NCBI GenBank assembly: GCA_003220315.1 | Contig: QHSA01000103.1 | Location: 1 to 40,101 of the forward strand | DNA from: Candidatus Rokuibacteriota bacterium | GTDB lineage: Bacteria > Methylomirabilota > Methylomirabilia > Rokubacteriales > CSP1-6 | Length of the DNA stretch: 40,101 nt | Reading direction: 5' to 3' | Part shown: one piece after another, positions 1,501 through 37,692 of the stretch | Position numbering within the stretch: position 1 is the stretch's first letter | How the letters are laid out: each line of letters starts with the position of its first letter | Made by a program: the position numbers and the translations under genes | Notes under the pieces: generated by a model | What the model saw: only the letters and a program-made list of their open reading frames with translations | What the model was told of the DNA's origin: nothing | The model's database searches: none

Positions 1501-2469
1501 CTAACGCGCGAGACGTCCGCTGAAGGCGTCTGGCGGGCCGAGCACGAGGCCGAGCGCCGCGCACAGCAGCAGAGCGCCGAGGACCCCGGTGACGCCGAGC
1601 CGCTCGCCGAACAGCAGCACGCCGAGGAGCGTCGCGGTGAAGGGCTCCGTGAGCGTGACGATGCCGGCCACCGACGCAGGCACGTGGCGCAGGCCGAGCG
1701 CGTAGATCGCGTACGCACCCGCCGTCGCGACGCCACCCAGGTAGAGGAGCCAGGGCCAGCCGAGGGCGAGCTGCCGAAGGGGTGCCTCGGACGACAGCAC
1801 CGCGGGGGTGAGGAGCACGGCGCCCACGGTGAAGGTGAGCGCGGTGAGCCGGAGCGGCGCCATTCGCGCGAGCGTCGCCTTCGCGAGCACGACGTAGAGC
1901 GCGTACGCGAGCCCCGCGGCGAGTGCCAAGAGCGCGCCGGCGCCGAGCCGCGCCGTGAGGTCGAGCGCGCCGTGCGGCGCCAAGACGAGGAGCGCCGTCC
2001 CGACGACCCCGAGCGCCAGTGCCACGCGGACGCGCGGCGTGAGCCGCTCGCCGAGTGCCCACGGCGCCAGCGCCGCGATCATGAGCGGCGCCGAGCAGAT
2101 CGCGACGAGCGCCGTGACGGCGATCCCGCTCAGCGTGACGGCGGTGAAGTACGCCGCCTGGTAGCCCGCCATGCACCCGCCCATCAGGACGCATCGCCCG
2201 AGATTGCTGTAACGAGATCCGTGAGGCCGGCTCGGACCGTGGGTGGCCTGAGAGAGGCGCGGGTGGCTCCGGTCCGCGGTCAGGAGCAGTGCGACGAGTA
2301 ACAATACGGCGGCGATCCAGAGCCGCGCCGCGCCGACCAGGAGGGGGCTCGCCGCCGCCCTCGCGGCGAGCACGGTCATGACCGATCCCGTCGTCCCCCA
2401 CGCGACCGCGGCGAGCGCGATCAGGACGAGGCCGAGGGACGCGGAGGGGGCTTGACGGGCCTGGCCCAC
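1501..2469 (-). CDS. EamA/DMT-family transporter (RhaT/YdcZ-like exporter)
   Basis: A 322-residue hydrophobic protein with about ten membrane segments in two EamA repeats. The first begins GLVLIALAAVAWGTTGSVMTV; the second includes LAAGLAYALYVVLAKA and ends in LTEPFTATLLGVLLFGERL, a hallmark of the second repeat. Proteins of this family export small metabolites or amino acids; the substrate here is unknown. The start is GTG at 2469, directly preceded by GCGAGG. A TATCAT box six bases upstream suggests a leaderless transcript. The loop between the second and third membrane segments (SHPRLSQATHGPSRPHGS) is unusually long and polar, and its DNA matches the 83-bp repeat found between hpnG and hpnA, so it looks like an in-frame insertion. 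Confidence 0.9.
   Translation of the reverse strand: MGQARQAPSASLGLVLIALAAVAWGTTGSVMTVLAARAAASPLLVGAARLWIAAVLLLVALLLTADRSHPRLSQATHGPSRPHGSRYSNLGRCVLMGGCMAGYQAAYFTAVTLSGIAVTALVAICSAPLMIAALAPWALGERLTPRVRVALALGVVGTALLVLAPHGALDLTARLGAGALLALAAGLAYALYVVLAKATLARMAPLRLTALTFTVGAVLLTPAVLSSEAPLRQLALGWPWLLYLGGVATAGAYAIYALGLRHVPASVAGIVTLTEPFTATLLGVLLFGERLGVTGVLGALLLCAALGLVLGPPDAFSGRLAR
2225..2270 (-). repeat. Relic of the 83-bp hpnG/hpnA repeat family inside the EamA gene
   Basis: Read on the minus strand, this stretch contains GGAGCC, then GCGCCTC, then TCTCAGGCCACCCACGG (a 17-base exact match at 2237-2253), in the same order and nearly the same spacing as in each unit at 34404-34655. It codes for the extra polar loop between membrane segments 2 and 3 of the transporter. 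The reading frame differs from that used by the mini-ORFs. The similarity is visible by eye; common origin is inferred. Confidence 0.55.
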
Positions 2470-5177: not shown

Positions 5178-5301
5178 CCACAGACTCGCCTCGGCCGGCG
5201 GGGCGCGATTATAGACTCGCCTCGGACGGCGGGGCCCCAGCCCCGCGACGTCCTCCGGCTCGCACTGCGGCCCCGCGACGTCCTGTGGCTCGCACGACCA
5301 C
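5178..5301 (-). repeat. Decayed copy of the GTG...TGA mini-ORF repeat upstream of the dehydratase gene
   Basis: Read leftward, the stretch begins GTGGTCGTGCGAGCCACAGG and encodes a peptide opening VVVRATGRRGAAVRAGG and ending APPSEASL before a TAA. It matches the mini-ORFs at 6187, 28765 and 36526 (shared V-R-A-x-G-R and E-A-S-L-stop). A second partial unit follows (GGCCGAGGCGAGTCTGTG), but its start has changed to ATA and its stop to TGTGGA, so the chain is broken. It sits between divergent genes, not between coupled ones. Confidence 0.65.
5208..5213 (-). promoter_or_regulatory. Candidate -10 box (TATAAT) for the IlvD/Edd gene, within a repeat relic
   Basis: A perfect TATAAT on the minus strand, about 47 bases before the start codon. 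It arises where intact repeats read TCTGTGATC and this copy reads TCTATAATC. No good -35 box is visible 16-18 bases upstream, so strength is uncertain. Confidence 0.5.
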
Positions 5302-5704: not shown

Positions 5705-6190
5705 ATGCTCGCGACCACGACGCACGTCCTTCGGATCCACCCCGAGAAGTGCACCGGTTGTCTTCGGTGCGAGCTCGCCTGCTCGTACATGCAGACGGGC
5801 ACGTTCCAACCCGCGAAGTCGGTCATCCGCGTCTCGCCCTTCGAGGGGCACACCTCGTATGCGCCCTACACCTGCACGCAGTGCGCCGAGGGGTGGTGCA
5901 TGACCGCCTGCCCCGTCGGCGCGATCACGATCAACGCGGCCGGCGCAAAGGATGTGCTCGACGACACGTGCGTGGGGTGCAAGCTCTGCACGATCGCGTG
6001 CCCCTACGGGACGATGTTCTACGACCCGGACACCCGCAAGGCCTTCAAGTGCAACCTGTGCGGCGGCGCCCCGGCCTGCGCCGAGGCATGCCCGACCGCG
6101 GCGATCACGTACGAGGCGACGGCGACCGCCGACTGGCTCGGCGAGTTCGCGCGGGAGCGGACCGCCCGGGTGCTCGCGGGGGCGCGGTGA
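5705..6190 (+). CDS. Four-cluster [4Fe-4S] ferredoxin subunit (AorA/HycB-like)
   Basis: A 161-residue electron-transfer subunit with sixteen cysteines in four groups: CTGCLRCELAC (about 16-26), CTQCAEGWCMTACP, CVGCKLCTIACP and CNLCGGAPACAEACP. This matches HycB/CooF/AorA-type polyferredoxins with four [4Fe-4S] clusters. It has no signal peptide, so it acts in the cytoplasm. It probably carries electrons between the tungsten subunit (7619) and the FAD/NAD subunit (6297). AGGAAG lies eight bases before ATG 5705, which I take as the start; GTG 5699, overlapping the previous stop, is an in-frame alternative. A repeat-derived mini-ORF separates it from the next gene. Confidence 0.9.
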   Translation: MLATTTHVLRIHPEKCTGCLRCELACSYMQTGTFQPAKSVIRVSPFEGHTSYAPYTCTQCAEGWCMTACPVGAITINAAGAKDVLDDTCVGCKLCTIACPYGTMFYDPDTRKAFKCNLCGGAPACAEACPTAAITYEATATADWLGEFARERTARVLAGAR

Positions 6191-6294
6191 TGGTCGTGCG
6201 AGCCACAGGACGTCGCGGGGCCGCCGTGCGAGCCGCAGCCGCCAGGCGAGGCGAGTCTGTGACCGCGCCCCCGCCGTCCGAGAGGAGCCTGTGA
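6187..6294 (+). repeat. Composite mini-ORF repeat bridging the ferredoxin and FAD oxidoreductase genes
   Basis: The ferredoxin stop is part of GTGA. The GTG at 6187 opens a 35-codon frame (begins VMVVRATGRRGAAVRAAA, ends APPPSERSL) that closes with TGA at 6292-6294, itself overlapping GTG 6291, an in-frame alternative start of the FAD gene. It shares GTGCGAGCC and GGCGAGTCTGTGA with the arrays at 28662 and 36526 and looks like two fused, slightly decayed units. Either translation-coupling DNA or a mobile repeat that tolerates this junction; it may be translated. Confidence 0.65.
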
Positions 6295-6296
6295 CG

Positions 6297-7622
6297 ATGG
6301 CGACGCGACACCTCATCATCGGCGGCGGCACCGCGGGCATGAACGCGATCCGCACGATCCGCGAGGAGGAGGGCGAGCGCTCGGAGATCGCGCTGGTGAG
6401 CGCCGAGACGCCGTACTCGCGCATGGTCCTCCCGTACTACCTCGACCGCTCGATCGCCGAGTCCCACGTCTTCACCGCGACCCCACGGGTGCTCGCGGAC
6501 TGGGGCGTGAAGCCACACGTCGGGCGCCGCGCGACAGCGCTCGACACCAGGGCCAACGTGTGCACCCTCGACGACGGGACGAGGCTCGAGTACGACGACT
6601 GTCTGATCGCCACGGGCTCGTCGGCGGTGAGGGCGCCGGTGCCCGGCGCCGATGGGCGCGGCGTCCACTCGTTCTGGACCCTCGACGAGGCGCGCGCGGT
6701 CCTCGCCGAGATCGCGCCCGGCAGCCACGTCGTCATGGTCGGCGCCGGCTTCATCGCCTTCACGATCCTGAACTCGATCCTCGCTCTCGGCGCCAAGCTG
6801 ACGATCGTCGAGGTGGCGCCGCGCATCCTGCCGCGCATGGTCGACGACGCGGGGGCGAGGCTCGTGGAGGACTGGCTCACGAAGCACGGCGTCGCGATCC
6901 GAACCGGCGCCAAGCTCACGCGGATCGAGGACGCCAAGGGGCGCAAGCGGCTCCGCTTCGCCGCGGGCGGGGATCTCGTCTGCGACGTCGTGATCATGGC
7001 GACGGGCATCAAGACCAACCTCGAGTGGCTCAAGGGCTCCGGCGTCACGGTCAACCGCGGCGTCGTCGTGGACGACCGTCTGCGCTCGAGCGTCCCGAAC
7101 GTCTACGCCGCGGGGGACATCGCCGAGGGGCGCGACCTGATCACGGGCGAGCCCGCGGTCCACGCGATCGAGCCGACGGCCCAGGAGCACGGGCGGGTCG
7201 TCGGCGCCAACATGGCCGGCAAGGACGTCCACTACCGCGGCAGCCTCATCGTCAACATCGTCGAGGTCTGCCACCTCGACGTCGCGTCATTCGGCGCGTG
7301 GGACGACGAAAGAGCGGAGATCGCGAGCGGCGTGAAGCCCGACCGGCCCGCCTACCGGAAGCTCCTCTGGCGCGGGGACCGGCTGACGGGCGCGATCATC
7401 CTGGGCCCGTCGAGCGACATCTGGACGACCAACGACGTCGGCATGCTCAAGGGGCTCGTGCAGTCCGGCGTGTCGCTCGCCCGCTTCAAGGCGCACCTCA
7501 AGCGCAACCCGTTCGACGTCAAGCCGGTCTTCATCGCGTCGAAGACCACGAGCGCGCTGCTCCCCGAGACCATCCTGGGCCGTCCGTCCAAGGCGCCCGG
7601 GAACACCCCGGTGGCCGTATGA
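6297..7622 (+). CDS. FAD-dependent pyridine nucleotide-disulfide-type oxidoreductase (AorC-like)
   Basis: A 441-residue flavoprotein. FAD-binding motif GGGTAG lies at the N-terminus (HLIIGGGTAGMNAIRTI), the NAD(P)-binding glycine motif GAGFIA in HVVMVGAGFIAFTILNSILALG, and the second FAD motif in VPNVYAAGDIAEG. It resembles NirB-type and rubredoxin-reductase-type proteins and the FAD subunit of NAD-linked aldehyde oxidoreductases. It would pass electrons between NAD(H) and the ferredoxin subunit. ATG 6297 lies nine bases after AGGAG; GTG 6291 is the alternative. The stop overlaps the next start as ATGA, so it is translationally coupled to the large subunit. No redox-active CxxxxC disulfide is visible. 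Confidence 0.9.
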   Translation: MATRHLIIGGGTAGMNAIRTIREEEGERSEIALVSAETPYSRMVLPYYLDRSIAESHVFTATPRVLADWGVKPHVGRRATALDTRANVCTLDDGTRLEYDDCLIATGSSAVRAPVPGADGRGVHSFWTLDEARAVLAEIAPGSHVVMVGAGFIAFTILNSILALGAKLTIVEVAPRILPRMVDDAGARLVEDWLTKHGVAIRTGAKLTRIEDAKGRKRLRFAAGGDLVCDVVIMATGIKTNLEWLKGSGVTVNRGVVVDDRLRSSVPNVYAAGDIAEGRDLITGEPAVHAIEPTAQEHGRVVGANMAGKDVHYRGSLIVNIVEVCHLDVASFGAWDDERAEIASGVKPDRPAYRKLLWRGDRLTGAIILGPSSDIWTTNDVGMLKGLVQSGVSLARFKAHLKRNPFDVKPVFIASKTTSALLPETILGRPSKAPGNTPVAV

Positions 7623-9568
7623 CCACAGCGATCGTTCAGGCTCAGAGCAGGACGACGACCCCGAGCCCGGCGCGCGAGCTGCCCGGCGGCTACGCCGGCA
7701 AGCTCCTGCGCGTCGACCTCACGAAGAAGAAGTGCTGGGCCGAGCCGTGGAGCGCCGACGAGATGCGGGAGCTGCTCGGCGGCGTCGGTCTCGGCGCCAT
7801 GATCCTCTACCGCGAGACCGCGACGAAGGGCGGCCGTGGCAACGTGAGCTGGGACCACCCGGACAACCGTCTGATCCTGGCCACCGGGCCCATGGCCGGG
7901 CTGCCCGCCTGGGGCTCGAGCGGCCTCACCGTCGTGACGATCGGCGCCGGGACCAACGGCCCCACCTCGACGCAGGCGAACGGTTTCTTCGGCACCAACC
8001 TCAAGTACTCGGGGTACGACGCGATCGTCATCCAGGGGCAGTCGCGGGACTGGGTCTACCTCTACATCAACGACGACGCGGTCGAGCTGCGCGACGCGAA
8101 GTTCCTTGTCGGTAAGGATACGTGGGCGACTCAGGACGCCCTCGGCCCTCAGCTGGGACTGTCTGGTCATATGCTCTCGGTCTACTCGATCGGTCCGGCG
8201 GGCGAGAACCTCGTGCGCTTCGCCGCGATCCAAGGCGACTACGGCCACGTCGCCTCCAAGAACGGCTGCGGCGCGGTGATGGGGAAAAAGAAGCTCAAGG
8301 CGGTGGCGATCGTGCGCGGGACGAAGTCGCTGCGGGCGGCGGACCCGCGCGGGCTCGTGCAGGCCGCCGACGATATCGGCTTCGATCTCCGCACCGACCC
8401 CTCCGCGAAGTCGCTCTACGAGTACGGCACGCTGCCGGGCGTCGTGAACCTCTCACGGCTGGGTGCCTTGCCAATCAAGAACTACACGACCAACGTCCCA
8501 CCTGTCGACATGAGTCAGTGGGAGGCCCCGAAACTCCGCGAGGGCTTCGACCATCGTGGCCACCAGTGCAGCGCCTGCGGCATGCACCACTGCCACATGT
8601 CGGTCATCCGGAAGGGCGAACACAAGGGCACGATCGTCGACGAGCCCGAGTACGAAGGCTGGTCAGGCGCCGGCTGGGCCATCGGCGCCATGAGCGACAT
8701 CGACGGCGTGGCCTGGTTGAACACCGAGCTCGACCGTGCGTGCCTCGACGTGAACGAGTTCGGCTGGATCTGCGGGTGGGTGATGGAGTGCCAGGAGAAA
8801 GGGTACCTCACGGAGGCGCAGGTCGGGTTCCGACTCACGTGGGGCGACATCAAGGGGGCCGCGCGGTTGATACAGATGATCAGCCATCGCCAGGGGTTCG
8901 GAAACGTCCTGGCCGAGGGCGTCAAGCGTGCGGCGGAGAAGCTTGGGAGCCCCGCCAAGGACTGCGCCATCTACACGGAGAAGGGCGCGGCCCCGCGCGG
9001 CCACGACCATCGCGCGCGCTGGGACGAGATGCTCGACACCTGCACCTCGGGCACCGGGACGCTGGAGAGCGGGGTGCCCGTGCACCCGGCCGAGATCGGC
9101 CAGCCCACGCGTATCAATACCTTTGACGGCGAGGCCGTCGCGAAGTTCATCGCCGGGATCCGGGGTCGGCGCAACTTCGAGGACTCCCTCGGGATGTGCA
9201 TCTTCACCACGCGCACGCGGCTCGAAAACCTCTGCCGTGTCCTCAACGCGGCCACCGGCTGGGACGTCACCGTGCCAGACACAGTCCGATTCGGTCGCCG
9301 GACGGCGGCCATCCTGCGCGCGGCGTCGCTCCGCTGTGGCCTCACGCCTGACCTCGAACGACCGTCCACGCGGTACGGCTCGACGCCGGTCGACGGCCCC
9401 GCCAAGGGCCAGGCCGTCGGCGAGCAGTGGGAGAAGATGGTCGACACCTGGTACCGTGAGGTCGGCTACGACCGGAAGACCGGCAAGCCCCTGCCGGCGA
9501 CGCTCAAGGCGCTCGGTCTCGACTGGCTCGCCAAGGACCTCTGGGGGAAGCGCGCGTCGCGACGCTGA
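7619..9568 (+). CDS. Aldehyde:ferredoxin oxidoreductase-family tungsten enzyme, large subunit
   Basis: A 649-residue protein of the AOR family (W- or Mo-bis-tungstopterin plus [4Fe-4S]). Seen: N-terminal GGYAGKLLRVDLTKK; GPMAGLPAWGSSG; cluster cysteines C317, C320 and C325 (CSACGMHHC) and Cys527 (LGMCIFTTR). The family more often has C-x2-C-x3-C; here the last gap is four residues. With the ferredoxin and FAD subunits it makes an operon like aorABC, whose enzyme oxidises aldehydes with NAD or ferredoxin and can run acids in reverse. BamB-type benzoyl-CoA reductase subunits share the fold, so another low-potential reaction cannot be excluded. It is the last gene of the operon and is followed by 156 bp without a gene. 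Confidence 0.9.
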   Translation: MTTAIVQAQSRTTTPSPARELPGGYAGKLLRVDLTKKKCWAEPWSADEMRELLGGVGLGAMILYRETATKGGRGNVSWDHPDNRLILATGPMAGLPAWGSSGLTVVTIGAGTNGPTSTQANGFFGTNLKYSGYDAIVIQGQSRDWVYLYINDDAVELRDAKFLVGKDTWATQDALGPQLGLSGHMLSVYSIGPAGENLVRFAAIQGDYGHVASKNGCGAVMGKKKLKAVAIVRGTKSLRAADPRGLVQAADDIGFDLRTDPSAKSLYEYGTLPGVVNLSRLGALPIKNYTTNVPPVDMSQWEAPKLREGFDHRGHQCSACGMHHCHMSVIRKGEHKGTIVDEPEYEGWSGAGWAIGAMSDIDGVAWLNTELDRACLDVNEFGWICGWVMECQEKGYLTEAQVGFRLTWGDIKGAARLIQMISHRQGFGNVLAEGVKRAAEKLGSPAKDCAIYTEKGAAPRGHDHRARWDEMLDTCTSGTGTLESGVPVHPAEIGQPTRINTFDGEAVAKFIAGIRGRRNFEDSLGMCIFTTRTRLENLCRVLNAATGWDVTVPDTVRFGRRTAAILRAASLRCGLTPDLERPSTRYGSTPVDGPAKGQAVGEQWEKMVDTWYREVGYDRKTGKPLPATLKALGLDWLAKDLWGKRASRR

Positions 9569-27922: not shown

Positions 27923-28665
27923 CAGGCTCCCTCCGCGCGTTCCGGTTCCCCGCGGATGAACTGCCGGACGACGGGGTTCGGCGACGCCTGGATGACGGCC
28001 GGCGGCCCGACCTCCGCGATCCGTCCCTCGTGCAGCATGGCCACGGTGTCGGCGATCTCGAAGATTTCAGGAATCTCGTGGCTCACCATGACGGCGGTGA
28101 AGCGGAGCTTCCGATGGAGCTCCAGGATCAGGTGGTGGATGGTGTTGACGAGGATCGGATCGAGGCCCGTGGTCGGCTCGTCGAAGAAGACGATCTCGGG
28201 CTCGGTGACGAGTGCGCGCGCGATGGCGACGCGCTTGCGCATGCCGCCCGAGACCTCGGCCGGGTACTTGCTTCCCATGCCCTCGAGCCCCACCTGGGTC
28301 AGGGCCGCCTCGACTCGCGTCGCGACCTCGGCGGCGCGCAGGCGCAGCTTCTCCCGGAGCGGGAAGGCCACGTTGCCGGCGCACGTCATCGAGTCGAACA
28401 GCGCGCCGCCCTGGAAGACGACGCCGTAGCGCCGCCGGACCTCGTCGAGCGCGCGCCCGTGGAGGCGGGTGACGTCCGCGCCATCCACGAGCACACGGCC
28501 CGCGTCGGGGCGCAGGAGACCGATCAGGTGCCGGAGAAGCACCGACTTACCGCCGCCGCTCCGGCCGATGACGACCGTGATCGAGCCCGTGGCGACGTCC
28601 AGGTCGAGCCCCCGCAACACCTGTTGCCGGCCGAACGCCTTGACGAGCCGCTCGACCTTTATCAT
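27922..28665 (-). CDS. mlaF: MlaF-type ABC transporter ATPase
   Basis: A 247-residue ABC ATPase: Walker A GRSGGGKS (residues 34-41), Q-loop VVFQGGALFDSMT, signature SGGMRKR, Walker B VFFDEPTTGLDP, and the H-loop SHE. These residues and the GGALFDSMTCAGNVAFPL segment fit the phospholipid-transport (Mla/Ttg2A) group. It powers lipid transfer with MlaE and MlaD. The usual MlaB STAS subunit is absent from the window. Its ATG overlaps the TGA of the last mini-ORF of the array at 28662-28865 (ATGA); the GGCGAG before it in the repeat may act as the ribosome site. Confidence 0.93.
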   Translation of the reverse strand: MIKVERLVKAFGRQQVLRGLDLDVATGSITVVIGRSGGGKSVLLRHLIGLLRPDAGRVLVDGADVTRLHGRALDEVRRRYGVVFQGGALFDSMTCAGNVAFPLREKLRLRAAEVATRVEAALTQVGLEGMGSKYPAEVSGGMRKRVAIARALVTEPEIVFFDEPTTGLDPILVNTIHHLILELHRKLRFTAVMVSHEIPEIFEIADTVAMLHEGRIAEVGPPAVIQASPNPVVRQFIRGEPERAEGA

Positions 28666-28865
28666 AGGCTCGCCTCGGCCGGCGGGGCCTCGTTCACAGA
28701 CTCGCCTCGCCTTCGGCTCGCACTGCGGCCCCGCGACGGCCTGCGGCTCGCACCGCCACGCTCACAGACTCGCCTCGGCCGTCGGACGGCCTGCGGCTCG
28801 CACCGCCACACTCACAGACTCGCCTCGGCCGTCGGACGGCCTGCGGCTCGCACCGCCACGCTCAC
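28662..28865 (-). repeat. Four-unit mini-ORF repeat array linking mlaE and mlaF
   Basis: Read leftward from the mlaE stop (TGA 28864-28862, in GTGA) the chain is: GTG 28865 and GTG 28815, two identical 50-bp units coding VSVAVRAAGRPTAEASL; GTG 28765, a 68-bp variant coding VSVAVRAAGRRGAAVRAEGEASL in two halves; GTG 28697, a 32-bp unit coding VNEAPPAEASL. Each stop overlaps the next start as GTGA, and the last overlaps the mlaF ATG as ATGA. Shared core: GTGCGAGCC, a GGCCGTC/GACGGCC stem, GAGGCGAGTCTGTGA. Related to arrays at 6187 and 36526. Confidence 0.8.
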
Positions 28866-33367: not shown

Positions 33368-33718
33368 ATGTCGGACACGGAGAGCCTCGAGGGCTGGGTG
33401 CCCGCGATCGGCCATGGGGTGACGCTCGAGGAGGTCGTCGAGCGCGCCTTCGACTACCGCGGCAACGTCACCGTCGTCAAGGCGGATGGCACCCGGCTCG
33501 AGGGGTACGTCTTCAACCGCAACCGCGACGTCGCGGTCCCCTTCGTCCAGGTGTTCGACCGCGCCGGTGCCGGCCCCTTGGACATCCCCTACGCCGACAT
33601 CCGCACGATCCTGTTCACCGGCAAGGACACGGCGGCCGGCAACTCGTACGCGGCCTGGCTCCGCGCCAAGGAAGCCTCGCAACAGCGTCTCGGCACTCCG
33701 CTCCCCCCGGGCGCGTGA
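33368..33718 (+). CDS. Small conserved hypothetical protein between hpnH and hpnG
   Basis: A 116-residue soluble protein, GHGVTLEEVVERAFDYRGNVTVVKADGTRLEGYVFNRNRDVAVPFVQVFDRAGAGPLDIPYADIRTILFTGKDTAAGNSYAAWL. The predicted layout is beta-rich and small, somewhat like an Sm- or RNA-binding-type barrel (V-T-V-V-K-A-D-G-T-R-L-E-G-Y-V-F); this is fold guesswork. I do not recognise a family. Its position between two hopanoid genes and GTGA overlap with hpnG suggest a shared role. ATG 33368 is used; GTG 33365 is the in-frame alternative. The ribosome site is weak. Confidence 0.7.
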   Translation: MSDTESLEGWVPAIGHGVTLEEVVERAFDYRGNVTVVKADGTRLEGYVFNRNRDVAVPFVQVFDRAGAGPLDIPYADIRTILFTGKDTAAGNSYAAWLRAKEASQQRLGTPLPPGA

Positions 33719-34407
33719 CGCGCGTCGCCGTCTTCACCGCAGTCGACCTCGAAGCCCGGAGCCTCGCGCGCCTGCTCGGGCTCGCGCGCGTCGCCGGTAG
33801 CGAGTGGCCGCATTACCGGACGGGGGCGCTCGAGCTCCTGTGCGTGGGCCCCCGCGCCCGCGCGCTCGACCTGCGCGCGTCGCGCATGGCGCCACCCGCG
33901 TTCGTCGTGTCAGCCGGCGTCTGTGGAGCCCTCTCACCCGACCTCGCCGAGGGCGACCTGGTCGTGCCCGAGACCGTCGTCGGCCCGACGGGCGCGTGCC
34001 ACGCGACCGCGGAGGTGGCGGGCCTCCGGCGGGTGGGGACGCTCGTGACCGTGGACGAGGTCGTGGCGACGCCGAGCGCGAAGGCGCGGCTCTGGGTCGA
34101 GGCCGGCGCGCTCGCGTGTGACATGGAGTCGGCCGTGATCCTCGAGTGGGCCCGGGCGCACGAGATTCCCGCCGCGGTGATCCGCGCGGTGAGCGACACG
34201 GCCGAGCGCGGCGTGCCCGCCGACCTCGCCGCGGTCGTGGAGCCGGACGGGCGGGTGCGAACGCTGCGCGCGGTTCGGGCGGTGCTGGCCCGTCCGCGCG
34301 CCTTCGCCGACGCCCTCGCGCTGCGGAGCGGGACGCACGTGGCTCTCCGGGCCGTGGCGCGCGCGCTCGGCCGCATCGCGAGGGACCCGCGGCCCCCGGT
34401 GAAATGA
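33715..34407 (+). CDS. hpnG: HpnG, hopanoid-associated nucleoside phosphorylase-like enzyme
   Basis: A 230-residue protein of the MTA/nucleoside phosphorylase fold. Seen: FVVSAGVCGALSPDLAEGDLVVPETVV, the Asp-Met-Glu site (ACDMESAVI, Asp136 to Glu138) and the second Asp in AVSDTAE (Asp161). HpnG removes adenine from adenosylhopane, giving (phospho)ribosylhopane. It starts on GTG 33715 overlapping the previous stop. Its C-terminal 40 residues are alanine/arginine rich. Its own stop is in ATGA, where the 83-bp mini-ORF array begins, so the next gene hpnA is linked through three repeats and not directly. Confidence 0.9.
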   Translation: MTRVAVFTAVDLEARSLARLLGLARVAGSEWPHYRTGALELLCVGPRARALDLRASRMAPPAFVVSAGVCGALSPDLAEGDLVVPETVVGPTGACHATAEVAGLRRVGTLVTVDEVVATPSAKARLWVEAGALACDMESAVILEWARAHEIPAAVIRAVSDTAERGVPADLAAVVEPDGRVRTLRAVRAVLARPRAFADALALRSGTHVALRAVARALGRIARDPRPPVK

Positions 34408-34659
34408 ACAGCGCCATGCGGAACGGAGCCGGGTCGCGCCTCGTCTCAGGCCACCCACGGAGTGTGGCGGCCCCGCGGCCGGTGGAATGAAGAGCGCCAT
34501 GCGCAACGGAGCCGGATCGCGCCTCGTCTCAGGCCACCCACGGAGTGTGGCGGCCCCGCGGCCGGTGGAATGAAGAGCGCCATGCGCAACGGAGCCGGAT
34601 CGCGCCTCGTCTCAGGCCACCCACGGAGTGTGGCGGCCCCGCGGCCGCCGGTACAATGA
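34404..34659 (+). repeat. Three-unit 83-bp mini-ORF repeat array linking hpnG and hpnA
   Basis: Units start at ATG 34404, 34487 and 34570 (spacing 83, 83, then 86 to hpnA). Each codes MxSAMRNGAGSRLVSGHPRS then VAAPRP and a short end (VE in the first two, PVQ in the third), 28, 28 and 29 codons. Each TGA overlaps the next ATG (ATGA), and the last ATG is the hpnA start at 34656. The three base changes between units 1 and 2 are all at third codon positions. The third unit is 3 bp longer, keeping the phase. Unrelated in sequence to the 50-53-bp family. Confidence 0.85.
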
Positions 34660-35651
34660 CTGACGCGCTCGTGACCGGTGGCACGGGCTTCGTCGGCGCC
34701 AACGTCGTCCGCGAGCTCCTCGCCCAGCGCCGCCGGGTGCGCGTGCTGGCGCGACCACGCGGAGACCGCCGCGCGCTTGCAGGGCTCGACGTCGAGATCT
34801 GCGAGGGAGACCTGCTGGATCCAGCCTCCGTGCAGCGCGCGGTGAAGGGCGTCGACGTCGTCTTCCACGTCGCGGCCGACTACCGCCTCTGGGCGCCCGA
34901 CTCGGAGGAGCTCCACCGCGTCAACGTCGGTGGCACGCGCGCCGTCCTCGAGGCCGCAGGCGCGGCGGGCGTGAGCCGCGTGGTCTACACCTCCACCGTC
35001 GGCGCGCTCGGGATCCCGGAGGACGGCGTCCCGGGGACCGAGGAGACACCGGTCTCGCTCCGCGACATGATCGGGCCCTACAAGGCCTCCAAGTTCCTGG
35101 CCGAGCAGGTAGCGCTCGGCTTCGCCCACCAGGGCCTCCCGGTCGTCGTCGTGAACCCGTCGGCGCCCGTCGGTCCCTGGGACGTCAAGCCGACGCCGAC
35201 CGGTCGGATGATCGTGGACTTCCTCGAGGGACGGATGTTCGCGACCCTCGACACGGGGCTCAATCTCGTGCACGTGCGCGACGTCGCCCGCGGCCACCTC
35301 CTCGCGGCGGAGCGCGGGAAGATCGGCGAGAAGTACATCCTCGGGAATCGGAACCTCTCGCTCGTCGAGATCGGCGTCCTCCTCTCCGAAATCACGGGGA
35401 TGCGGCCGCCGCGCGTGCGGATCCCCTACTGGGTGGCCTGGGGCGCCGCCCTCGCCATGGAGGCGGCCGCGCGGATCGGCGGGTCGCCGCCGCGAGTGTC
35501 CCTCACGGCGGTGCGGATGGCGAGGAAGCACATGTACTTCAGCCCCGCCAAGGCCGTGCGGGAGCTCGGCCTGCCGCAGACCGACGTCCGTGAAGCGCTC
35601 CGCGACGCGACCGGCTGGTTCCGCGCGCACGGCTACGTGAGCGCCCGATGA
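34656..35651 (+). CDS. hpnA: HpnA, hopanoid-associated NAD(P)-dependent sugar epimerase/reductase
   Basis: A 331-residue extended SDR: TGGTGFVG near residue 8, VDVVFHVAADYRLWAPD, the Tyr-x-x-x-Lys pair in YKASKFLAE, and the HpnA-type C-terminus with HVRDVARGHLLAAERGKIGEKYILGNRNLSL. Its role in hopanoid loci is unproven; the family name is by association. The ATG overlaps the TGA of the third 83-bp mini-ORF. The frame extends upstream through the repeats (to 34545), but that part is in a different phase from the mini-ORFs and is not real. The stop overlaps the hpnD start. Confidence 0.92.
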   Translation: MTDALVTGGTGFVGANVVRELLAQRRRVRVLARPRGDRRALAGLDVEICEGDLLDPASVQRAVKGVDVVFHVAADYRLWAPDSEELHRVNVGGTRAVLEAAGAAGVSRVVYTSTVGALGIPEDGVPGTEETPVSLRDMIGPYKASKFLAEQVALGFAHQGLPVVVVNPSAPVGPWDVKPTPTGRMIVDFLEGRMFATLDTGLNLVHVRDVARGHLLAAERGKIGEKYILGNRNLSLVEIGVLLSEITGMRPPRVRIPYWVAWGAALAMEAAARIGGSPPRVSLTAVRMARKHMYFSPAKAVRELGLPQTDVREALRDATGWFRAHGYVSAR

Positions 35652-36529
35652 TCGCGGACCTCACCGCCCGGCTCACACGGAAGAGCCGCTCGAACTTCTA
35701 CTACGCGTTTCTCACGCTGCCGCGCCCGCGTCGCGAGGCGCTCTACGCGGTGTACGCCTTCTGCCGGACCGTGGACGACATCGCGGATCTCGGCGGCGAG
35801 CGGGGCGTCGACCCGCCGGTCCAGCGCCGGGAGCTCCGGCGCTGGCGCGAGGAGGTGGCGCGCTGCTACGCGCCGGGCGCGGTCCCCGACCACCCGATCG
35901 CGCTCAGGCTCCAGACCGCCGTACGCGCCTACGCGATCCCGCGCGCGGCGCTCGAGGCGATCATCGACGGCGTCGAGATGGACCTCGACCGCGTCGCCTA
36001 CGAGACGGCGGAGGAGCTCTACCCGTACTGCTACCGCGTCGCCTCTGCGGTCGGGCTCTGCTGCATCGAGATCTTCGGCTACACCGACCCCCGCGCGCGC
36101 CAGTACGCGATCAAGCTGGGCCAGGCACTCCAGCTCACGAACATCATCCGCGACGTCGGCGCCGACGCCCGGGCCGGGCGCGTGTATGTGCCGCAGGAAG
36201 ACCTCCGGGCGTTCGGCGTCACCGTCGACGATCTGAAGGGGGCTCGTTACACCGAGCCGTTCGTGCGCCTGATGACCCACCAGGCGGTACGCGCGCGGCA
36301 ATTCTACCGGGTCGCATGGGAGAGCTTTCCCGCGGCCGACGCGCGCTCGCTCGTGCCGGCCGAGATCATGGGGCGGATCTACCTCGCCCTGCTCGACGAG
36401 ATCGAGACGCGACGGTTCCGTGTGTTCGGTGAGCGCGTCACGGTGCCGGTTGCGAAGAAGCTCGCGATCGCGCTCCGCTGCTGGGTTGCCGCCAGGCTCG
36501 GGCGCGCCGCCCGGACGCTCGCCGCGTGA
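35648..36529 (+). CDS. hpnD: HpnD, presqualene diphosphate synthase
   Basis: A 293-residue prenyl-synthase-fold protein: SNFYYAFLTLPRPRREALYAVYAFCRTVDDIAD (first Asp-rich motif Asp43, 44 and 47) and LTNIIRDVGADARAGRVYVP (second, Asp169 and Asp173). In most bacteria HpnD joins two farnesyl diphosphates into presqualene diphosphate, then HpnC and HpnE make squalene; those two are not in this window, so they must lie elsewhere or this enzyme does more. ATG 35648 overlaps the hpnA stop. Its own stop is part of GTGA at 36526-36529, where the 53-bp mini-ORF array starts. Confidence 0.92.
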   Translation: MIADLTARLTRKSRSNFYYAFLTLPRPRREALYAVYAFCRTVDDIADLGGERGVDPPVQRRELRRWREEVARCYAPGAVPDHPIALRLQTAVRAYAIPRAALEAIIDGVEMDLDRVAYETAEELYPYCYRVASAVGLCCIEIFGYTDPRARQYAIKLGQALQLTNIIRDVGADARAGRVYVPQEDLRAFGVTVDDLKGARYTEPFVRLMTHQAVRARQFYRVAWESFPAADARSLVPAEIMGRIYLALLDEIETRRFRVFGERVTVPVAKKLAIALRCWVAARLGRAARTLAA

Positions 36530-36687
36530 TCGGCGTGGTCGTACGAGCCGCAGGCCGTCCGACGGCCGAGGCGAGTCTGTGATCGGCGTGGTCGTACGAG
36601 CCGCAGGCCGTCCGACGGCCGAGGCGAGTCTGTGATCGGCGTGGTCGTGCGAGCCGCAGGCCGTCCGACGGCCGAGGCGAGTCTGTG
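36526..36687 (+). repeat. Three-unit 53-bp mini-ORF repeat array linking hpnD and the first alcohol dehydrogenase
   Basis: GTG starts at 36526, 36579 and 36632, exactly 53 bp apart, each coding VIGVVVRAAGRPTAEASL (18 residues). The first GTG overlaps the hpnD stop, each TGA overlaps the next GTG, and the third TGA overlaps GTG 36685, the start of the dehydrogenase. Units 1 and 2 are identical; unit 3 has one silent change (GTA to GTG). Same family as 28662-28865 on the other strand. GAGGCGAG sits six or seven bases before each next GTG and could serve as a ribosome site. Confidence 0.85.
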
Positions 36688-37692
36688 ATCGCATCTGTGT
36701 ACCGCGGAGACGGAAAGCTCGTCGCCGAGGAATGGCCCCGGCCGACGATCGGCGCCGGCGAGGTGCTGTTGCGCGTCCTGGGCTGCGGGCTCTGCGGCTC
36801 TGACATCGCGAAGATCGTGGACCCGTCGACGCCGGCGCCGCTCGTGCTCGGCCACGAGGTCGTCGGTGAGATCGTCGCGCTTGGCCCGGGCGTGACGGAC
36901 TGCGCGATCGGCGACCGCGTCGTTGCCGCCCACCACGTCCCGTGCGGCGACTGTCACTATTGCCGACGAGGGAGCGAATCGATGTGTCACGCCTTCAAGG
37001 CGTCGAACCTCGACCCCGGTGGCTTCGCGGAGTACGTGCGAGTGCCCGCGCCAAACGTCCGCCACGCGCTGTTCCGGGTGCCCCGCCACGTGACCGACGA
37101 GGCGGCGTCGTTCGTGGAGCCCCTCGCGTGCTGTCTGCGCTCGGTACGGCGCGCGCGCGTCGCGCCCGGCGACACGGTCGTCGTCGTCGGCCTCGGCTCG
37201 ATCGGCTGTCTCTTCGTCCAGCTCCTCCGGCGCGCGGGAGCCGTGGTGGTCGGCTGCGACCCGATCGCCGCGCGCGCCGAGCTCGCCCGACGCCTGGGCG
37301 CGGCCGCCGCGGGGCCCGCCTCCGCGGCCGCGGCCGCGCAGCGCGAGCTCTCTGGCGGACGTGGCGCCGACCAGGTCATCGTCACCGGCGGCGGGACGGA
37401 CGTGCTGCCGTGGGCGGTGGAGAGCCTCCGCGACGGCGGGACGGTCCACTACTTCGCCAGCGGCGGCGACACGCTCCCGCTCCGGCTCGAAACGCTCTAC
37501 CACCGGGAGCTCACCCTGACCGCCACGTACTCGTCGTCGCCCTCTGACCTCGCCGAGGCCTTTCGGCTGATCGTCGCGGGCGAGGTGTCCGTGGACCGGC
37601 TCGTCACCCATCGCGTGACGCTTCCCGGGCTCCACCGCGGCGTGGATTTGATGCGACGGCGCGAGGCGCTCAAGGTGTACGTGACGCCATGA
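36685..37692 (+). CDS. Zinc-dependent medium-chain alcohol dehydrogenase 1
   Basis: A 335-residue MDR enzyme. Catalytic zinc ligands Cys37 (GLCGSD), His57 and Glu58 (GHEVVGE); structural zinc cysteines 87, 90, 93 and 101 (CGDCHYCRRGSESMC); NAD-binding GLGSIG in VVVVGLGSIGCLFVQLL. It oxidises or reduces an alcohol/carbonyl, probably with NAD(H). The GTG start is fixed by the end of the repeat array. It is coupled to a second dehydrogenase (ATGA). Lying after hpnH, hpnG, hpnA and hpnD, it is a candidate for reduction of the ribosylhopane side chain. Sorbitol/threonine dehydrogenase-like subgroup. Confidence 0.88.
   Translation: MIASVYRGDGKLVAEEWPRPTIGAGEVLLRVLGCGLCGSDIAKIVDPSTPAPLVLGHEVVGEIVALGPGVTDCAIGDRVVAAHHVPCGDCHYCRRGSESMCHAFKASNLDPGGFAEYVRVPAPNVRHALFRVPRHVTDEAASFVEPLACCLRSVRRARVAPGDTVVVVGLGSIGCLFVQLLRRAGAVVVGCDPIAARAELARRLGAAAAGPASAAAAAQRELSGGRGADQVIVTGGGTDVLPWAVESLRDGGTVHYFASGGDTLPLRLETLYHRELTLTATYSSSPSDLAEAFRLIVAGEVSVDRLVTHRVTLPGLHRGVDLMRRREALKVYVTP

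Follow-up and report, generated by a model that had tools for sequence, protein, structure and literature searches.

At this locus, a copy of a mostly intergenic repeat lies within the reading frame of a membrane transporter gene. The window, a 40,101-nt stretch of Candidatus Rokuibacteriota DNA, harbors an EamA-family transporter gene (1501..2469, minus strand) encoding a 322-residue ORF, which was assigned by Pfam (PF00892, E 1.1e-32) and by alignment of orthologues, and which shares a conserved core with an array at 34.4 kb. The EamA insert is likely to represent a single copy of a mobile repeat dispersed in Rokubacteria, the long units of which would form a ribosome relay between genes and the short forms of which reside within genes.

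An in-frame repeat copy in the EamA gene

Search with nhmmer revealed a short-form repeat copy at 2202..2277 on the minus strand, in frame within the EamA gene (53.6 bits, E 4.1e-15), which spans positions 24-100 of a profile model of ~103 positions. The initial annotation had reported a match of 46 bp at this place; the match is real, but its extent is about 76 bp. The 17-bp conserved core lies at 2237..2253 (minus strand) and recurs exactly, as had been claimed, within the tandem units, at plus-strand positions 34444, 34527 and 34610. The flanking motifs GGAGCC and GCGCCTC, also pointed out at first, are present in conserved order in both the EamA and the array copies. None of 100 dinucleotide shuffles gave four matches to the 17-mer at ≤3 mismatches.

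The insert is located between membrane segments 2 and 3, as judged from hydrophobic runs. Alignment of 25 orthologues showed that the loop ahead of “RCVLMGG” in the source genome (G000) is 17 residues longer than that of the congener G003, counted on the alignment, which bears out the longer-than-usual loop noticed earlier. The insert is in frame in the congeners G000, G001 and G002 and missing from the congener G003, and most other genera have short loops. Four of the 25 orthologues (G000, G001, G002 and G024) have a profile match and 21 have none; the insert is thus missing from most EamA genes. The copy of G002 is longer, covering model positions 5-100, and indels distinguish the inserts of G000, G001 and G002, with the frame kept in all three.

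In G024, which belongs to another genus, the same EamA loop contains the core in inverted form (locus L035; antisense profile match, E 7.8e-12). As another genus has an upright copy at this place, the loop was probably hit twice. A chance or convergent low-complexity origin of the loop might be considered from the GC-rich EamA loops, which differ in length among the aligned orthologues; it is refuted by the 76-bp profile match (E 4e-15), against a reversed control of zero, and has a negligible chance of being right. The initial annotation had named two observations that would speak against a repeat origin, and neither was made: no orthologue combined the same loop at the protein level with unrelated DNA, and the 17-mer is not a chance word of the genome, as its reversed pattern was found at 0 places compared to 130 for the core.

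Unit structure and distribution of the repeat family

In the full unit, a left end with ATGA is followed by a middle part containing CGGAGCC and GCGCCT, then by the core and a GC-rich stretch; the right end lies near CGCTACAATGA. The 130 core matches, found at ≤2 mismatches in the whole 4.26-Mb genome, answer the earlier call for a search for further copies. A profile built from 67 seed copies, applied at a cut-off of E 1e-3 or better, detected 125 copies in 75 arrays within 316 kb around core matches, and no match in the reversed sequence at the same cut-off; the choice of these stretches by core matches means that copies whose core has diverged are under-represented. The arrays comprise one unit in 38 cases, two units in 24 and three units in 13. 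Direct tandem arrays of ~50-100 bp units at many loci are a trait shared with mycobacterial MIRUs.

The long units are 83-87 bp in length. A terminated ORF opening at a left start codon is present in 38 of 57 full-length copies, and in 25 of these it is 29 codons long. Core-to-core distances leave a remainder of 2 on division by three in 26 cases, of 0 in 19 and of 1 in 2, a mixture that weighs against the relay described below. Among the matches listed for the exact 17-mer, 71 of the 80 named stretches belong to Rokubacteria/Rokuibacteriota and the remaining nine to scattered other taxa, none of them being mycobacterial. At ≤1 mismatch, the core occurs in 20 of the 60 relatives searched, chiefly within the same genus and in part of the remaining genera of its family; G024 has 77 places, G006 has 69 and G001-G003 have 21-25 each. 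No genome from beyond the family contained it.

A stop/start relay between co-directional genes

The array at 34404..34659 on the plus strand, bounded by the ATGA with the upstream stop and the ATGA with the downstream start, is a tandem of three long-form units, which measure 83, 83 and 86 bp (profile matches at 34400-34661). The upstream gene (33715..34407, plus strand), a member of the phosphorylase superfamily (PF01048), has its TGA within the first ATGA, and the downstream gene (34656..35651, plus strand) has its ATG within the last. The array forms a perfect relay of three small ORFs with a 4-nt overlap at each step. At the same junction in G003, G006 and G024 there is no repeat and the two genes overlap by GTGA; the site is also variable in unit number, with three in the source genome, a single unit in G001 and over three in G002.

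Over the whole set, arrays in co-directional gaps are in the orientation of the genes in 48 cases and opposite in 9 (p 1.5e-7), a bias also expected of MIRUs. Only 11 of the 75 arrays lie within genes, the others being in gaps or at gene ends. The junction statistic covers 38 arrays; besides these 11, it leaves out 10 that lie too distant from any called gene, 12 without a gene of the repeat's own direction on each side and 4 at contig edges. The upstream stop lies within ATGA, GTGA or TTGA at 34 of the 38 junctions, and the downstream start within NTGA at 30, a count that depends on the home-made gene finder from which gene starts were taken. A strict relay, in which small ORFs each start in a 4-nt stop overlap and the last ends 4 nt into the downstream start, was found at 23 of the 38 junctions, compared to 10.2 expected when the gap sequence was shuffled with its ends kept, another MIRU-type trait. 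A relaxed relay was found at 32, compared to 16.4 expected, and 15 junctions have no strict relay.

The long form, which reaches the left ATGA, accounts for 35 of the 48 same-orientation gaps, compared to 2 of the 20 arrays that are intragenic or opposite (p 2e-6), and the EamA copy is a short form without the left ATGA. This distribution suggests that an own start is favored where the unit acts as a cistron, and that loss of the left end accompanies its use as a protein segment.

In the proposed mechanism, long units are placed mostly between co-directional operon genes and in gene orientation, with the ATG of the small ORF overlapping the upstream stop and its TGA overlapping the downstream start (ATGA or GTGA). 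A ribosome that finishes one gene would translate the unit, restart and continue, a passage suggested by the ORFs and overlaps seen in the sequence; arrays of two or three units would act as a relay. Short forms without the left ATGA occur within genes or against the gene direction, the EamA copy among them. A non-mobile regulatory or translation-enhancing leader, selected at certain genes, would account for the orientation and the stop-to-start placement, but hardly for the unrelated genes, the empty orthologous sites, the changes of copy number and the intragenic and inverted copies, which makes it very unlikely.

Empty sites and mobility

For seven same-orientation junctions the counterparts in G001-G003 were examined, and for one of these also those in G006 and G024; at all seven, the array is missing in at least one relative. 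MIRUs are said, by Supply in 1997, to insert at DTGA sites. In the repeat-free relatives, a 4-nt NTGA gene overlap was found at five of the seven junctions, namely GTGA at the 34.4-kb site in the three genomes given above, GTGA at J256c in G001, ATGA at J256b in G003, GTGA at C90d in both G001 and G002, and GTGA at C90c in G001, where the downstream start was judged by eye. The two exceptions are J256a in G002, with TAG followed by GTG at a spacing of +1, and C90a in G003, with a spacing of +7. As the -4 overlap occurs in 53 of 200 repeat-free co-directional gene pairs, five of seven is an enrichment of modest significance (p 0.017). The array C90b, of opposite orientation and outside the seven, is empty in G002 and G003.

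Since the empty sites are mostly NTGA overlaps, insertion there would spare both genes, which the comparison indicates are kept intact. The initial annotation had supposed that the 83-bp element moves, and empty and filled orthologous sites were indeed found. Judged from these sites, in EamA and two more genes, the repeat is a mobile element that enters genes in frame. The internal boundaries of arrays are often GTGGAATGA and the final unit ends with CTACAATGA; this difference suggests that recombination or slippage, rather than a series of insertions, may account for array growth.

Copies within other genes

Of the 11 intragenic arrays, 4 are in the orientation of the gene and 7 against it; the set rests on called genes, and the C64 calls look doubtful. 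EamA and eight other repeat-bearing genes have clear Pfam domains. Three of these nine, namely EamA, the RumA-type gene and HolB, were compared with relatives. The in-frame copies occur in unrelated genes and in both orientations, and only in-frame, stop-free copies were seen within genes.

The RumA-type RNA methyltransferase has a loop after “NKMEFTI” built of 16-residue units, three in G000 and four in G002, with about one unit each in G001 and G003 and none in the remaining rows; across relatives the unit number is thus 0, 1, 3 or 4. The insert of HolB (DNA polymerase III delta prime) is present only in G000 and G002 among 23 rows. Empty relatives therefore exist for the EamA, RumA-type and HolB inserts, as is expected of the in-frame entry known for Rickettsia palindromic elements (RPEs). 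The tolerated copies sit in loops in all three proteins.

The RumA-type gene of L228 (G011) has an unrelated long insert, with no profile match, at the loop where genus g1 has its repeat-coded inserts. At L065 (2662-3438) and L066 (1639-2655), the repeat ORF seemingly runs in frame into the downstream gene at its start, giving it an N-terminal extension, and several other genes terminate in repeat-coded tails.

Tests of fold, peptide and mobilizer

A palindromic element of the Rickettsia type should form a hairpin, have protein genes as its niche and encode a conserved peptide. The in-frame copies in unrelated genes and in both orientations agree with such an element, as described in a review of RPEs (PMC10969869). 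However, no conserved hairpin was found in 57 copies: RNAalifold gave -0.88 and -5.03 on the two strands, and the mean fold z-scores were +0.44 and +0.19 (40 of the 57 copies), so that the palindrome expected of RPEs is missing and the hairpin reading was rejected. The consensus fold of the 57 copies also showed no terminal pairing, and hence no terminal inverted repeats as in MITEs, and Rfam gave no family in the window.

The differences per pair at the three codon positions of the small ORF are 9.57, 8.51 and 8.47 (295 pairs, 25 copies). As they are spread evenly, there is no sign of purifying selection on the peptide, which speaks against a peptide under selection and departs from the conserved peptide of RPEs. 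With just 11 of 75 arrays intragenic in addition, a Rickettsia-type element is very unlikely here. The initial annotation had drawn a likeness to the in-frame palindromic insertions of Rickettsia. Of this, the in-frame entry holds and the palindromic nature does not, and the likeness captures only half of the matter, as most copies lie between co-directional genes, where they would act as translationally coupled mini-cistrons. Taken together, the relay statistics and the absence of any sign of selection on the peptide favor passage of the ribosome as the constraint, and the small ORF seems to serve as a ribosome path and not for its peptide.

REP/BIME elements with RAYT transposases are numerous small dispersed copies, which the Rokubacteria repeat resembles. 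An element of the REP/RAYT type, moved by a Y1 (tyrosine) transposase, would fit its high copy number, small size and mostly intergenic position. However, the Y1 transposase (PF01797) has 0 matches in the repeat-bearing G000, G001, G002, G003 and G006, which speaks against it as the mobilizer there, whereas 14 of 36 genomes do have a match, and no hairpin is present. This origin is therefore highly improbable.

Comparison with MIRUs and other known repeats

To our knowledge, no mobilizer of MIRUs has been identified. According to a review, MIRUs seem to be mobile elements that target start codons, with their ORF coupled at -4 spacing (PMC12548453); another paper gives lengths of 77 and 53 bp and restricts MIRUs to M. 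leprae and the M. tuberculosis complex (PMC4213456). The Rokubacteria repeat is alike in its short tandem units between co-directional genes, with an internal ORF coupled to the flanking gene at -4. The unit lengths of 83, 86, 65 and 53 bp seen in Rokubacteria are 2 mod 3, as are the 77 and 53 bp of MIRUs. It differs in its host, which is of another phylum, and in its sequence context, and the family also occurs in frame within protein genes. The repeat is termed MIRU-like here rather than a MIRU, the likeness being one of design.

It is RPE-like as well, sharing with RPEs the in-frame insertion into unrelated genes described in the review (PMC10969869), whereas it is not palindromic, shows no sign of peptide conservation and is mainly intergenic. 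Unlike REP/BIME with RAYT, it has no hairpin, and its hosts G000-G003 and G006 have no Y1 transposase. We know of no stop/start relay in ERIC or RU elements. A paper on these enterobacterial repeats (PMC2759123) describes them as small and mobile, with ORFs and some intragenic copies, and the Rokubacteria repeat is similar in these respects. No earlier description of Rokubacteria repeats or of translationally coupled repeats was found in the open-licence literature, which is weak evidence that none exists; the one match to “MIRU-like” was a Trichodesmium species name and irrelevant.

Second and third repeat families

A separate family with the core CGAGGCGAGTCTGTGA has 95 core matches at ≤1 mismatch in G000 and 95 in G002. 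In the window, three 53-bp units, running from GTGA to GTGA, lie between two co-directional genes at 36526..36688 (plus strand) and form a relay of three ORFs with 4-nt overlaps. A relay of four ORFs with 4-nt overlaps likewise occupies 28662..28865 (minus strand), where units measuring 50, 50, 68 and 32 bp connect the GTGA of the upstream stop with the ATGA of the downstream start. One long unit at 6187..6298 (plus strand) has a single ORF that opens in the GTGA of the upstream stop and terminates 2 nt before the called start, and a further copy lies at 5179-5300. The spacing of this 53-bp family is 2 mod 3 in 36 of 37 cases, with 67 as the exception, and this is the spacing that a relay requires. 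The tally was made by hand for places in G000 and omits the distances 106 and 136, taken to be two units, along with all long ones.

One genome thus contains two families (~83 and 53 bp) with unrelated cores that both relay, as mycobacterial MIRUs do. From this we tentatively propose, with slightly less than even confidence, that repeats transparent to ribosomes form a general class that arose independently more than once, one family of which both bridges cistrons and remodels protein loops. In the first family, loss of the start end would have given a short form able to enter genes in frame. If this were true, the MIRU design would be no peculiarity of mycobacteria but a recurrent solution by which small mobile DNA persists in dense operons with translation unbroken, and one repeat family would show mobile DNA becoming protein parts. 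The numerous empty and filled sites in close relatives make the insertion rule, array growth and the effect on translation directly testable, and a second lineage would be available in which to look for the mobilizer of MIRUs.

A third, hairpin-rich repeat (TCATCGAAGGGGGCC...) is nested in 83-bp copies at L068 (~2648-2741) and L010 (~1581-1674), with parts of the core on both sides. At L090 (~9249-9299), a copy of the 53-bp family is nested within a copy of the 83-bp family.
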